From Bacteroidota bacterium (GTDB taxonomy: Bacteria; Bacteroidota; Bacteroidia; Chitinophagales; Chitinophagaceae), in assembly GCA_018268085.1 (NCBI GenBank), contig JAFDXE010000003.1, positions 62,001 to 126,000 of the forward strand: a DNA stretch of 64,000 bases, written 5' to 3'. The number at the start of each line of letters is the position of its first letter. The first letter of the stretch is position 1. This document shows positions 57,495-63,675 of the stretch, one piece after another. The notes beneath the pieces were generated by a model. The model saw only the letters and a program-made list of their open reading frames with translations, was not told the DNA's origin and did no database searches. The position numbers were made by a program, and so were the translations under genes.

Positions 57495-57542
57495 AATTAG
57501 CTAATTAGCCAATTGACAAATTAGCTAATCGACTAATTGTTC
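57495..57542. repeat. Octamer tandem repeat, unit AATTAGCT
   Basis: Six 8-bp units (AATTAGCT, AATTAGCC, AATTGACA, AATTAGCT, AATCGACT, AATTGTTC). The tract overlaps the stop codon of the ABC exporter gene and encodes its last residues. Confidence 0.75.
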
Positions 57543-59327
57543 CTGGAATTGCATTTTATGCAACTGGTAATAAAAACCCTGCTTCCGGATCAGTTCATCG
57601 TGGGAACCCATTTCCTTGATTTCGCCTTTGTCTAACACAAGAATTGTATGCGCTTTTCGAATGGTGCTCAGCCGGTGTGCAATAACAATAGATGTTCTGC
57701 CGGCAATGAGCTTATCTATGGCTTGTTGCAACAATGCTTCGCTTTCAGAATCTATGGAGGAAGTGGCTTCATCCAAAATCAAAACAGATGGATCGTACAG
57801 CAATGCCCTTACAAACGACAGTAACTGCCGCTGCCCCATTGATAAAGTAGCGCCCCTTTCCATCACATTATAATCGTAACCTCCCGGTAAACGTTCAATA
57901 AAATCATGTATGCCGATCATTTTTGCAGCCCTTATTACTTCTTCTTTTTTTATAGCAGGATTGCGCAGGGTTACATTGTCCATTACCGAACCACTGAATA
58001 AGAACACGTCCTGCAACACAACGCCAATCCTGCTGCGAAGGAAACCAAGTTCATAATCTTCTATATTAACCTCATCAATTTCAATGGCGCCTTTTTGAAT
58101 ATGATACAATCGATTGATCAGGCTGATGATGGAGGTTTTGCCACTGCCGGTATGCCCAACGATGGCAATTGTTTTACCCTGGCCAATTTGAAATGAAATA
58201 TCTTTTAATACATATTGTTCATCTGTATAAGCAAACCAAACGTTTTTAAATTCAATATTTCCTTTTAGTGTTGCAGGAGCAATTTTTCCTGCATTCATTG
58301 TAACGTCGGTATTGTCCAACACCTTAAAAACCCTTTCACTGGCGATCATTCCCATTTGTAATACATTGAATTTATCGGCGATTACCCGCAATGGCCGAAA
58401 CAGGAGATTGAGGCATAATATAAACGCTGTAATAATACCCGCAACATTTGCAGCTTTTTCAGGAGCGATGGCCAAAGATTCTTTTGCGGCCCACCACACC
58501 AGCAAGCCGATGGAAAATGCGGAGATCAATTCTACAATCGGGAAAAAAACAGAATAGGCAAAGATGGCTTTGATGTTTGCATTCCGATGCTCCCTGTTTA
58601 TTTTTCTGAACTTATCAAATTCTCTATCTTCTGCTGCAAAGGCCTGTACCAGCGACATGCCCGTAATGTGTTCCTGCACAAATGCATTTAAAGAGGCAAC
58701 TGCATTACGTACACGTATAAACGATTTGTTTACACTTTCCTTAAAATAATAAGTTGCGATGATGAGCACCGGAAATGGTGCAAGGCATACAAGTGTAAGT
58801 CTCCAGTCGGCCTGGAACATATACACTAAAATGGCAATGATCGATAGCAGGTCGGCAATGATGGGAATCAGCCCTTCACTAAAAATATCATTTACCGATT
58901 CAATATCATTGATCGTTCTTGTAGTAAGCGTACCGATGGGTGTTTTATCAAACTGAGATAAATTCAGGTTAAGTATTTTCTGGTAGGTTGATATGCGAAG
59001 ATCTTTAACAACACTTTGCCCTAGTGATGCCGTGGTAAATGTAAAATAAAACCTTGCAATGGATTCTATTAACAGTAAAGCAATTTGTATGATGGTGATT
59101 TCAATAATAAAGCCCCCTGCTCCTTTAATAAACAAGGCGGCTGTTTGTTCTTTTATTCCGTGATTGATGGTTATTTGTATTAACCATGGACGCAACGGCG
59201 ACATCAATGCCAGCAATACAGATAATACGATGGATATGTAAAATTTCTTTTTATACGGAGCTGCAAACCTGAATACCCGCCGCAATAATGAAACATCAAA
59301 AATTTTCTTAGAAGAAGCATCCGCCAT
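57525..59327 (-). CDS. ABC exporter, MsbA-like (fused permease-ATPase)
   Basis: A 600-residue half-transporter: six membrane helices in the first about 330 residues, then an ATPase with Walker A GHTGSGKTS, signature LSMGQRQLLSF, Walker B VLILDEATSSID and the switch IAHRLST. The layout and the N-terminal RVFRFAAPYKKKFYISIVLS fit the MsbA/lipid- or drug-exporting group; it works as a homodimer in the inner membrane. The substrate is unknown. A TAACTTTG box ends 4 nt before its ATG. Single gene. Confidence 0.93.
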   Translation of the reverse strand: MADASSKKIFDVSLLRRVFRFAAPYKKKFYISIVLSVLLALMSPLRPWLIQITINHGIKEQTAALFIKGAGGFIIEITIIQIALLLIESIARFYFTFTTASLGQSVVKDLRISTYQKILNLNLSQFDKTPIGTLTTRTINDIESVNDIFSEGLIPIIADLLSIIAILVYMFQADWRLTLVCLAPFPVLIIATYYFKESVNKSFIRVRNAVASLNAFVQEHITGMSLVQAFAAEDREFDKFRKINREHRNANIKAIFAYSVFFPIVELISAFSIGLLVWWAAKESLAIAPEKAANVAGIITAFILCLNLLFRPLRVIADKFNVLQMGMIASERVFKVLDNTDVTMNAGKIAPATLKGNIEFKNVWFAYTDEQYVLKDISFQIGQGKTIAIVGHTGSGKTSIISLINRLYHIQKGAIEIDEVNIEDYELGFLRSRIGVVLQDVFLFSGSVMDNVTLRNPAIKKEEVIRAAKMIGIHDFIERLPGGYDYNVMERGATLSMGQRQLLSFVRALLYDPSVLILDEATSSIDSESEALLQQAIDKLIAGRTSIVIAHRLSTIRKAHTILVLDKGEIKEMGSHDELIRKQGFYYQLHKMQFQEQLVD

Positions 59328-59444: not shown

Positions 59445-61652
59445 CTATTCCATCTTTTTATTATAGGCCTTTATAAAAATCGCCGCAAGGTTTTTATACG
59501 GTGGTATGTAATCATCCCAGCTATCTCTTTTTTCGCGACTGGGATCTTTTGAGAAAGATTTGGTAAGTGTGTTCCACATATCTTTCCATACAATTTTATT
59601 TCCCGAGATCATTGATTGATTGAGGTAATTCTGTATGGGTTGCGTGATGGACCCGGTACCTATTTCTTTGGTTGAAATGATATTTGCATCCGGGCAAATT
59701 TCCAGGATCGTATTCAGGTTTTTATAGCCTCCACAGGAACCCAGTACCACAATTTTTGCATCTCCTGGCATACGATCAATGGTGCCCGGCAGCCAATAAC
59801 TATGTCCGCGATGAATCACCACCGTAGGTTTCATATCGTTCGATTCAAGATATTTATTGAGATGAACCTGTGCACTGTCATCTAAGTTTTTGTCATTCTC
59901 CAGTGGCCTGTTTGCAAAGATCCACACATTGCCTTTTACAGAACGGATCTCATACCATTCCTTCTTCTGGGTTACTTTCCATTCCCGTGAAGCAAATGAA
60001 TTAATAAACGCAGGGAAATGTTGTTTACCATCATCATCTCCGTAAAAAAATACCTGCTGGATAATTCTGCCGCTGTCATCTGCCAGGTCTGAGTTTTTCA
60101 ATTCATAAATAGATGGGATGCCGAGCGTTTCCGTAAGATTTACTTTATTGGCACTGTCTGCCGAAAGAAAAATCTGTTTTAATAATCCATAGATCACGGC
60201 GCCCCTGTTATTGTTATTAGCAATACTCTGTTCTTCATTACGGATTACGTTATTCAGAATATTTACCTGTAATTTTTTATCATTGATGCTGCTGTATGAA
60301 TCGGCAACATCGGTAGCATCTTCGAGGTCGGTGCCTTTATCGAGGTTGTTTACAAATGCACGCATGAGTGTTTCTGAATTAGCAGCAGGCATGCTCCTTA
60401 AAAAGGTATCGAGTTTATTGTAATTCGCAGTCAACTTAATAAACTTCTTAAAATAATCGAAGTTTACTTTCATCAGCAATGAATCACCTCTTGGGTTGCC
60501 GCCCATTTTCTGCAGCATCCGGTTAAAGCTATGTTTAAAACTGGATGTAAAAATATCGTTCTCGCCCATCACCATCATGTAATACAATTCTTCCGGTGAT
60601 AACGGATCTATGGCACGCATACGGATGGCGAGATTGCTTTGTTCATGCAGGTCGTTAATGGGCCGGATAAAATGTTCCAGCGCTTTACCTTTCAGCGTTT
60701 CACGCAAACCGTTAGCACCAAACATAGCAACAGGCGTATCGCGTTTAATGGAAGTAAGACGGGTATAATAATCTATCTCCGTACGTACCAGTAATTTAAA
60801 ATAGCCAACGCTGTCGTAGCCTTTGGGACCGTCAACATATTTTTTAATGCTGTCAATGGGTTGCTTCCCGGAAAGGATATCATCAAGAAAAGGAAAGTAA
60901 AAAAGTGCATCCGGTGTCTGGCTGAGTTTGGCTACTGCCATTACCATACTGTCTGTATTGCGGTGGATCAATATTCCTTCAGGAGAATTATTGGATTGCG
61001 CATACGTATATAACTGTACCGGGTTGCGCCGGGCAGCCAATGCTATGAGTGTGTCGGCAAAAGGTTCGTCTACATATGGCCGTATGGTTTGTAAAATTTT
61101 ATCCGGGTTAACGATGCAGTATTTTTTATACATGATCTTTTTTGAATCGGCATATCCCGGGTTATCAAAAAATATCTCGGTAAGAATACTGGCAATTGGA
61201 TAAGGCGCTGCATCAATAATGGGAGTCATAGTACCTCCTGCAGCCTGGTTCCTGATAATGGTTTCAAAATTATCTTCCAGTAAAGGAAAATCCAGCGGGC
61301 TTATTTCTTTCTTTTTCCAGGCGATTCGAAAATCTTTCAGTACGTTTTCAATATAACTGAGGTAACGTATTTTTTCATTGTTGTTGCTGATGCTGTCATT
61401 TGTTTCCACCCATTCCTGGAGTGCATCTATTTTCCTGAAAAGCACATCTGTTAACCGAAGATTTATTTCTTCATTAGTGCCAAGACGAAAATAGTTGTCC
61501 TCTTTTCCGTCTGCTTTATCGCATTGCTGTTGCTGTTTGTCGATCTTATCATGAAAATATCTTCTTTGCAGCGGAATCAGCACTGTATCTGCAGATGCAA
61601 AAACGGCGGTATAACAACTAATAAAAAGGGAAAGTAAAAAGATATATCTCAT
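59445..61652 (-). CDS. Large secreted protein with caspase-like (clan CD) C-terminal signature
   Basis: From the ATG at 61652 the product has 735 residues with a signal peptide (MRYIFLLSLFISCYTAVFAS). About 550 residues of mostly helical sequence with no recognised domain follow. Near the C-terminus two hydrophobic strands carry a His and a Cys in the clan CD arrangement: PTVVIHRGHSYW (His614/His617) and, 23 residues after His617, KIVVLGSCGGY (Cys640). This pattern is the mark of caspases, separases, gingipains and CHAT proteases. If real, it is a periplasmic or surface cysteine peptidase. I recognise no family for the whole protein. An upstream in-frame ATG was rejected since it hides the signal peptide. 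Confidence 0.75.
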   Translation of the reverse strand: MRYIFLLSLFISCYTAVFASADTVLIPLQRRYFHDKIDKQQQQCDKADGKEDNYFRLGTNEEINLRLTDVLFRKIDALQEWVETNDSISNNNEKIRYLSYIENVLKDFRIAWKKKEISPLDFPLLEDNFETIIRNQAAGGTMTPIIDAAPYPIASILTEIFFDNPGYADSKKIMYKKYCIVNPDKILQTIRPYVDEPFADTLIALAARRNPVQLYTYAQSNNSPEGILIHRNTDSMVMAVAKLSQTPDALFYFPFLDDILSGKQPIDSIKKYVDGPKGYDSVGYFKLLVRTEIDYYTRLTSIKRDTPVAMFGANGLRETLKGKALEHFIRPINDLHEQSNLAIRMRAIDPLSPEELYYMMVMGENDIFTSSFKHSFNRMLQKMGGNPRGDSLLMKVNFDYFKKFIKLTANYNKLDTFLRSMPAANSETLMRAFVNNLDKGTDLEDATDVADSYSSINDKKLQVNILNNVIRNEEQSIANNNNRGAVIYGLLKQIFLSADSANKVNLTETLGIPSIYELKNSDLADDSGRIIQQVFFYGDDDGKQHFPAFINSFASREWKVTQKKEWYEIRSVKGNVWIFANRPLENDKNLDDSAQVHLNKYLESNDMKPTVVIHRGHSYWLPGTIDRMPGDAKIVVLGSCGGYKNLNTILEICPDANIISTKEIGTGSITQPIQNYLNQSMISGNKIVWKDMWNTLTKSFSKDPSREKRDSWDDYIPPYKNLAAIFIKAYNKKME

Positions 61653-61811: not shown

Positions 61812-62492
61812 ATGAATACCGGCAAAAAAATTTTAATTGCAGATGATGAACCGGATATCCTTGAAATCATCCAGTTTAACCTGAAATCTGAAGGTTACGA
61901 GGTAGAAACCGCAAAAAACGGCGATGAAGCGTTTGAAAAAGCAAAAAAATTTCTACCCGACCTCATTATACTGGATATCATGATGCCCGGGAAAAATGGA
62001 ATTGAAGTTTGTAACCTGCTCAGGATATTACCCGCTTTTAAAGACACGCTCATTATTTTCCTTACGGCGATGAGCGATGAAAACACAGAGATCAAAGGGC
62101 TGGAATCGGGTGCAGATGATTACCTCACCAAACCCATAAGCCCGAAAGTGCTTATCAGTAAAGTAAATGCTTTATTCCGCCGCCTGAATACCGCTAAACA
62201 GGATAAAAAAATAGTTCAGATCGGTGAACTGGTGATCGACAGGGAAAAATACAATGTACGTTTCAGGAATGAAGACATAGTACTGGCACGCAAAGAATTT
62301 GAATTGCTTTCACTCCTGGCTTCCAAACCCGGAAAAGTTTTTCTTCGCAATGAAATATTAAACCAGATCTGGGGAACAGAAGTAATCGTTGGCGATCGTA
62401 CCATCGATGTACACATCCGTAAGATCAGGCAAAAGCTCGGGCTGGATTGTATTACTACCGTAAAGGGGGTGGGGTATAAATTTGAGCTATAA
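61812..62492 (+). CDS. OmpR/PhoB-type response regulator
   Basis: The 226-residue product has a receiver domain (1-120) with acidic pocket Asp11-Asp12, phosphoacceptor Asp55 (LIILDIMMPG), Thr85 and Lys107. A winged-helix DNA-binding domain follows (about 130-226: LARKEFELLSLLASKPGKVF, TIDVHIRKIRQKLG, TVKGVGYKF). It is a transcription factor switched by phosphorylation. Its partner kinase gene starts 133 nt downstream. The pair resembles PhoB-PhoR, although no phosphate genes are adjacent. Confidence 0.94.
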   Translation: MNTGKKILIADDEPDILEIIQFNLKSEGYEVETAKNGDEAFEKAKKFLPDLIILDIMMPGKNGIEVCNLLRILPAFKDTLIIFLTAMSDENTEIKGLESGADDYLTKPISPKVLISKVNALFRRLNTAKQDKKIVQIGELVIDREKYNVRFRNEDIVLARKEFELLSLLASKPGKVFLRNEILNQIWGTEVIVGDRTIDVHIRKIRQKLGLDCITTVKGVGYKFEL

Positions 62493-62625: not shown

Positions 62626-63675
62626 ATGCTATCTCATAAAAATCTATCACCACAGCAACTGGCTGCGCTAACATCACTGATACTTACCATACCGGTAACA
62701 TTAGCCATATTGTTTTTTGAACCGGTTTGGTGGGTTGTGCTGTCGTTTTTTATCGTAATGTTCATTGGTTGCTTCAGTATTATTTTAATCACGCTTCAAA
62801 CATTTATTTACCGTAAAATAAAACTCATTTACAAACTCATCTATCAAACCAAGGCGAGCAAAAGGGAGGAATTTTATTATAAGAATATTTTACCCCAGAA
62901 AGGAATTGATGAAGTGAGAGAAGACGTAGAAGCATGGGCACAGCAACGAAAAATAGAAATTGAAATATTGCAGCAAAATGAAAAGTTCAGGAAAGAATTT
63001 TTACAGAACCTCAGCCATGAATTAAAAACGCCCATATTTTCTATACAGGGTTATGTAGATACTTTATTGAATGGCGCATTGCATAACGACGAAGTGAACA
63101 CGAAATTTTTGCAGAATACGGCACGCAATATAGACAGGCTGGTAAACCTCGTAGATGACCTGGATGCTATTTCCAAACTGGAAAGCGGAGAACAGGAACT
63201 GCAACTTCAGCATTTTATCATCCAGGATTTACTGAAAGAAGTGTACGATACACTCGAACTTAAAAGCCAGGAGAAAGACATTAAATGCATAATTAAAAAG
63301 GGATGTGAATTACCATTGAATGTGTATGCAGATAAAGAAAAAATCCGCCAGGTTTTGATTAACCTCGTAGACAATGCCATAAAATATGGAAAGACAAACG
63401 GAACTATTGAGGCCAGTTTTTATAACGTAGACGGGAAAAATGTACTGGTTGAAATCAGTGACGACGGGGCAGGTATTGCCGAAGAACACTTACCAAGAAT
63501 TTTTGAAAGATTTTATCGTACAGATATGGCCCGCAGCCGTAGAGTGGGTGGCAGCGGACTCGGATTATCGATCTGTAAACACATCATCGAAGCACACGGA
63601 CAAACCATTCATGTAAGAAGTAAGGTGGATGTGGGAACTACGTTTGGGTTTTCGTTAAAGGCAAAGCAGGAATGA
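62626..63675 (+). CDS. Sensor histidine kinase, PhoR-like
   Basis: The 349-residue product has two N-terminal membrane helices (about 13-33 and 35-60) with almost no periplasmic loop. A dimerisation domain with the phosphorylated His131 (FLQNLSHELKTPIFSIQGY) follows, then an ATPase domain with N box LINLVDNAIKYG, G1 DDGAGI, and G2 GGSGLGLSICKHIIEAHG. No PAS or HAMP domain was recognised, so the sensing mode may be intramembrane or through partners. It pairs with the response regulator just upstream. Confidence 0.93.
   Translation: MLSHKNLSPQQLAALTSLILTIPVTLAILFFEPVWWVVLSFFIVMFIGCFSIILITLQTFIYRKIKLIYKLIYQTKASKREEFYYKNILPQKGIDEVREDVEAWAQQRKIEIEILQQNEKFRKEFLQNLSHELKTPIFSIQGYVDTLLNGALHNDEVNTKFLQNTARNIDRLVNLVDDLDAISKLESGEQELQLQHFIIQDLLKEVYDTLELKSQEKDIKCIIKKGCELPLNVYADKEKIRQVLINLVDNAIKYGKTNGTIEASFYNVDGKNVLVEISDDGAGIAEEHLPRIFERFYRTDMARSRRVGGSGLGLSICKHIIEAHGQTIHVRSKVDVGTTFGFSLKAKQE

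Follow-up and report, generated by a model that had tools for sequence, protein, structure and literature searches.

Probable caspase-type peptidases with a helical scaffold

In the peptidases of clan CD, strand 3 carries the His residue and strand 4 the Cys residue at its C-terminal end, and for several families of this clan a dependence on Ca2+ is known (PMC4357240). A helical region ahead of a C-terminal caspase-type domain is the build of TPR-CHAT as well as of separase, and in both cases a partner switches the caspase-type domain on or off (PMC9729208). Here, TPR-CHAT harbors K670 in place of D2151, the Asp with which separase reads the P1-Arg of its substrate (PMC9729208).

The gene described here resembles this build. 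It lies at 59445..61652 on the minus strand of the window, which denotes the whole analysed stretch of 64,000 nucleotides, and encodes a protein of 735 amino acids from an apparently exported, caspase-like family without a name. We consider it probable that this protein belongs to a clan CD-like family which has not been described before, and that it acts as a cysteine endopeptidase after export, probably in the periplasm.

The likeness to separase (MEROPS C50) comprises the helical superhelix followed by a C-terminal domain, which is of clan CD in separase and probably so in the window protein, as well as the short distance between His and Cys, which is 26 residues in the human enzyme (H2003 and C2029; PMC9729208). 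In contrast, separase is a eukaryotic and intracellular protein and a sequence match to it was not found. A preliminary description of this DNA had called the short His-Cys spacing nearer to separase than to caspases, and this comparison is strengthened by the build of a helical scaffold plus C-terminal domain. TPR-CHAT/Csx29 of Craspase (type III-E CRISPR) likewise displays helical repeats ahead of a caspase-type domain at the C-terminus, in which the His precedes the Cys. However, this system is CRISPR-linked, an export signal is not expected for it and no significant sequence similarity is present. Furthermore, His and Cys are 42 residues apart in TPR-CHAT (H585 and C627) in comparison to 23 in the window protein.

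DdvA of Myxococcus (PDB 8rw5, 8rot) carries a CHAT domain on a membrane signalling protein and belongs to the top group of structural matches. It contains a transmembrane anti-sigma part, whereas the window protein is predicted to be soluble and exported and is encoded beside a two-component system (TCS); sequence similarity between DdvA and the window protein was not found. Two families represented in Bacteroidota are also comparable. The clostripain family C11 includes iotapain (PDB 6nag, 6n9j), a secreted cysteine peptidase of Bacteroidota and the best match to the domain in the full-length structure comparison, but the C11 profile PF03415 misses the window family and the aligned chain of iotapain (350 residues) is without a long helical scaffold. 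The gingipain/PorU family C25 consists of exported clan CD peptidases of Bacteroidota. However, it scored no better than shuffled columns in hhalign, and the C25 protein of the window genome itself is a separate frame of 1712 amino acids on another contig.

The gene and the encoded protein

The open reading frame at 59445-61652 starts with ATG and contains both motifs on which the preliminary description had based its proposal of a clan CD peptidase, VVIHRGHSYW and KIVVLGSCGGY, exactly as quoted and with H617 and C640 spaced by 23 residues. A longer frame starting with GTG reaches 61700; if the ATG is used, a signal-peptide-like stretch becomes N-terminal (residues 1-21, ending in AVFASA and followed by DT; 61590..61652, minus strand). 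A simple hydrophobicity test revealed a signal-like N-terminus in 110 of 129 family members. The preliminary description had called the protein secreted. Since the C-terminal domain ends the protein and no sorting domain stands behind it, we prefer the reading that the protein is exported and probably located in the periplasm.

Residues 30-510 (60123..61565, minus strand) form an all-helical, superhelix-like region in the AlphaFold2 model, and in the full-length structure comparison partial matches of this region to TPR/HEAT-type proteins were obtained. It had been stated that the roughly 550 residues ahead of the motifs contain no recognisable domain. This is correct for Pfam, NCBIfam and the sequences of the PDB, but on the level of the model the superhelix-like arrangement is visible. 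The remaining part, residues 513-735 (59448..60116, minus strand), is an alpha/beta domain according to the AlphaFold2 model and the structure comparison.

Within this domain, four conserved elements are present, all on the minus strand. The first is YGDDDG (residues 537-542, 60027..60044) in the loop after the first strand. It is followed by the HRGHS motif (residues 614-618, 59799..59813) with H617 as candidate catalytic His, and by the GSCGG motif (residues 638-642, 59727..59741), in which conservation as well as the register of the profile alignments point to C640 as candidate nucleophile. Finally K662 (59667..59669), which stands immediately behind the next strand after C640, is a candidate substrate-pocket residue.

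Conservation of the His and Cys motifs

An alignment of the C-terminal domain was built from 34 sequences, in which the others share 32-71% identity with the window protein. Of its 223 positions only 15 do not vary at all, and eight of these 15 fall inside the nine residues of HRGHS and GSCG, a conservation that exceeds chance by far. In a larger set of 131 distinct domains, H614, R615, G616, S618, G638, C640 and G641 are invariant (131/131), while H617 and S639 are each kept in 129. The spacing between H617 and C640 is 23 residues in 129 of 130 sequences. Here, the candidate catalytic His is preceded by a Gly (G616) and followed by a Ser (S618) at a position where Gly is usual.

The predicted invariance was thereby observed for C640 but not entirely for H617, both exceptions being long paralogs. 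Homologues lacking His617, which the preliminary description had named as evidence against its proposal, do exist; however, they are only long duplicates, and every short copy retains H617. The window gene encodes the short form, and about 118 distinct sequences of this form all retain both H617 and C640.

Outside of both motifs, D539 is present in 130 and D541 in 128 of the 131 distinct domains, and the position of K662 is occupied by Lys or Arg in all of them. In the C-terminal part of the domain W693, Y715, P718 and N721 are conserved. By analogy, K662 is perhaps equivalent to K670 of TPR-CHAT and points away from a preference for Arg at P1, whereas D539 and D541 could favour a basic P1 residue or bind a metal. 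The YGDDDG loop as a whole is described here as a possible substrate-pocket or metal site. The family pattern YGDxDG also resembles the calcium-binding DxDG loop, and marginal EF-hand matches are present in 2 of 34 members.

Family libraries and profile comparison

Searches of Pfam, NCBIfam, PADLOC and the PDB sequences with the protein or with the alignment yielded no match of use, and a description of the family was not found in the literature. The CHAT profile PF12770 matched 0 of 34 members at E<=1, and the profiles Peptidase_C11 (PF03415), Peptidase_C14 (PF00656) and Peptidase_C25 (PF01364) do not match the family (34 members). The same was observed with Pfam for every clan CD family including separase (C50). 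Solely the PADLOC model "chat" gave a weak match in one of the 34 members (E 0.013), and a profile search of the window's own genome found no CHAT match. The search against clan CD peptidases that had been proposed as a check thus returned a significant match to none of the families compared. This family resembles clan CD peptidases, yet it is detected by no clan CD family profile tested.

For the profile-profile comparison with hhalign, nine families were taken from genomes of Bacteroidota or from the neighbours of the gene, namely CHAT, C25, C11, C14, FeoB, response regulator, histidine kinase, ABC and atpB. CHAT ranked top with a score of 23.3, and its alignment ends with C640 placed on the catalytic Cys of LSAC; a second CHAT alignment displays the same register. 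For C14, C640 is aligned to the catalytic Cys of DAC. Shuffled columns scored as high in 1 of 120 cases for CHAT, 3 of 120 for C14 and 63 of 120 for C25, and no match to the clan CD families compared is significant on its own.

Predicted structure and fold comparison

The AlphaFold2 models were computed with close relatives only (57-83% identity), of which 22 entered the full-length model. The full-length model (mean pLDDT 81, pTM 0.65) consists of helices from residue 30 to 510 and the subsequent alpha/beta domain, which was also modelled alone (mean pLDDT 82, pTM 0.84). In both models the C-terminal domain consists of alternating strands and helices, with the two motifs of His and Cys lying just behind successive strands: H614 is placed at or near a strand end with H617 just behind it, and C640 follows two to four residues past the next strand, where residues 640-642 have a pLDDT below 50 in the full-length model. 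As modelled, this setting agrees with the one described for clan CD.

In the comparison using the full-length model, the five best matches that cover the C-terminal domain are all clan CD proteins, with Z values of 8.0-9.0. Iotapain of family C11 was ranked best (Z 9.0, rmsd 4.0, 180 aligned residues, model residues 525-735), and its second entry reached Z 8.1. DdvA (Z 8.7, rmsd 10.3, model residues 421-719) and TPR-CHAT of Craspase (Z 8.4, rmsd 13.6) were aligned across two domains, at an rmsd of 10-14, and Csx29 was matched with Z 8.0 at an rmsd of 3.5 over 153 residues. DdvA is a CHAT protein, since hmmsearch with the CHAT profile detects it with E 1.6e-13 and ranks it above both Csx29 and TPR-CHAT. 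GTPases over the same domain reached a Z of at most 7.6; all of these Z values are within or just above 7-8, the range typical of the best chance matches. In addition, a viral C11 protease was found at rank 3 of a BFVD search, and Foldseek with the full model gave no match below E 0.1.

If the domain is used alone, GTPases of the Ras/Arf/FeoB type rank first (Foldseek E 4.6e-5; VIA Z up to 9.3 with 127-140 aligned residues), which would fit a degenerate small-GTPase-like domain of the Ras/Arf type. Such a domain is nevertheless very improbable: the P-loop GxxxxGK[ST] is absent, and the first strand is followed by YGDxDG without a conserved Lys. The GTPase alignments stop at about residue 689 and omit the part with the conserved W693, Y715, P718 and N721, whereas the iotapain alignment runs to residue 735. 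Furthermore, FeoB obtained the lowest hhalign score of the nine families. GTP is also not expected in the periplasm. Since GTPases fill the VIA matches listed for the domain alone, the absence of clan CD proteins there is no argument against clan CD.

The fold matches are hence not unique to clan CD, and this leaves room for another explanation, in which H614, H617 and C640 form a His/His/Cys cluster on an alpha/beta fold unrelated to clan CD, where it binds a metal or catalyses a different reaction. All three residues are near-invariant, H614 even more than H617. On the contrary, the motifs agree with clan CD in their order, setting and register, and conserved paralogs lack one of the three putative ligands; this explanation appears improbable to us.

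For the clan CD fold, which had been assigned from the two motifs only, the evidence is supportive, not decisive. The setting of the motifs, the five best full-length matches and the Cys register argue for it. The support is only partial, since domains of the Ras/Arf type reach almost equal scores, and the top scores if the domain is searched alone. Furthermore, no profile match is significant, a Ser follows the candidate His, and exceptions to H617 exist.

Proposed function

For the preferred reading of a clan CD-like endopeptidase, the following mechanism can be envisaged. The helical superhelix (residues 30-510) would hold and position the substrate, or bind a regulator or an inhibitor. In the caspase-type domain (residues 513-735), H617 located after one strand would activate C640 after the next one, which would then attack the peptide bond. 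The near-invariant motifs with their fixed spacing, the secondary structure as predicted, the distribution and the gene neighbourhood are observations, whereas we infer this dyad, the caspase-type fold, the peptide-bond cleavage, the location and a link to the neighbouring TCS.

If the protein is a caspase-type peptidase, clan CD would gain a family with an unusual His-Ser setting, and a separase-like build would be placed in the bacterial envelope. The more far-reaching picture of a new clan CD family, in which a separase-like enzyme of the periplasm uses an HRGHS/GSCG active site of its own, is near-universal in Chitinophagaceae, is tied to a TCS and in related families is produced as a coupled pair of an active copy and a long, inactive one, is a tentative one that we hold to be somewhat doubtful as a whole.

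Distribution and gene neighbourhood

The gene is present in the window genome and, within the same genus, in each of the 35 further genomes that were searched. In the sample of the phylum, all 14 of 14 Chitinophagaceae genomes carry it (the own genome included), and in the sample of the order it was found nearly everywhere in Chitinophagaceae, the exceptions being two genomes of 2.3 Mb from one genus. Seven further families of the order carry the gene as well (f4, f6, f9, f11, f18, f20 and f21). Named loci belong to Ferruginibacter sp., Chitinophaga pinensis and other Chitinophagaceae or Bacteroidota assemblies. In the rest of the Bacteroidota sample, the search with the full-length alignment yielded nothing at E<=0.001, and the best hit of the domain-only search was a fragment of 56 residues with stop codons (E 4.9e-4). 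In several draft assemblies (G005, G031, G033, L051 and L052) the gene is split into two frames, by either assembly errors or decay.

The near-universal presence suggests a core role in the envelope or in signalling. The libraries tested contain no annotation for this presumably exported protein, although it is conserved throughout a bacterial family.

The most constant neighbours are a divergent response regulator (Response_reg plus Trans_reg_C; 61812..62492, plus strand) and its histidine kinase (62626..63675, plus strand). Directly downstream on the same strand, an ABC exporter gene (57525..59327, minus strand) is a frequent neighbour. Within the genus, the divergent genes for the histidine kinase and the response regulator come first, followed by the gene itself, the ABC exporter and atpB-E-F-H. 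In other genera of Chitinophagaceae the divergent TCS pair is most constant, and the exporter and the atp genes are frequently retained, though not in every case. This neighbourhood suggests a shared regulation or a shared pathway with the TCS. Outside Chitinophagaceae, no common partner was observed in the gene neighbourhoods; in family f11 a similar TCS pair lies just upstream of tandem paralogs. Here, a DUF547 gene (L106:6188-6958) is located between the response regulator/histidine kinase pair and the paralogs.

Long paralogs and tandem pairs

The departures from H617 read HRGYS and HRGLS and occur in long copies of 935 and 1003 amino acids. H617L was found in long paralogs of three species of one genus (L304, L305 and L306), and H617Y in a long paralog from the genome of another family (L303). 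The recurrence of HRGLS in these three species shows that it does not stem from faulty sequencing. The long paralogs without H617 retain H614 and C640, and the copies of 935 and 1003 amino acids each adjoin an intact short copy with an overlap of a few bases. The loss of H617 in the long duplicates, while the short copies keep it, is the pattern expected of pseudoenzymes, and the long copy is probably the inactive partner of the intact short copy in these coupled pairs. Such pairs of an intact and a degenerate gene represent a natural test of how enzymes of this kind are controlled.

The same paralogs bear on the main rival of the peptidase reading, in comparison to which the metal site and the degenerate GTPase are weaker. 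Here, the caspase-type domain would bind or sense without cutting, as a pseudoenzyme, a scaffold or an envelope sensor, which perhaps feeds the TCS. A precedent is given by the pseudo-variants of orthocaspases, in which Tyr and Ser replace His and Cys (PMC6426788). The existence of conserved paralogs without H617 (H617L in the three species) and of DdvA, a top-group structural match that is a transmembrane anti-sigma factor with a CHAT domain, renders this possibility more plausible, and the divergent response regulator and kinase as most constant neighbours would also fit. However, the short form keeps both H617 and C640 in its about 118 distinct sequences, and the loss of H617 is confined to the long duplicates. 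For the window protein we regard a non-cutting function as unlikely and favour an active peptidase.

Tandem pairs composed of a long (about 935-1140 amino acids) and a short (about 700 amino acids) copy are frequent outside Chitinophagaceae, and their reading frames overlap or almost touch (L074:2430-7793, L075:3462-8268, L108:6209-11625 and L109:7071-12189).
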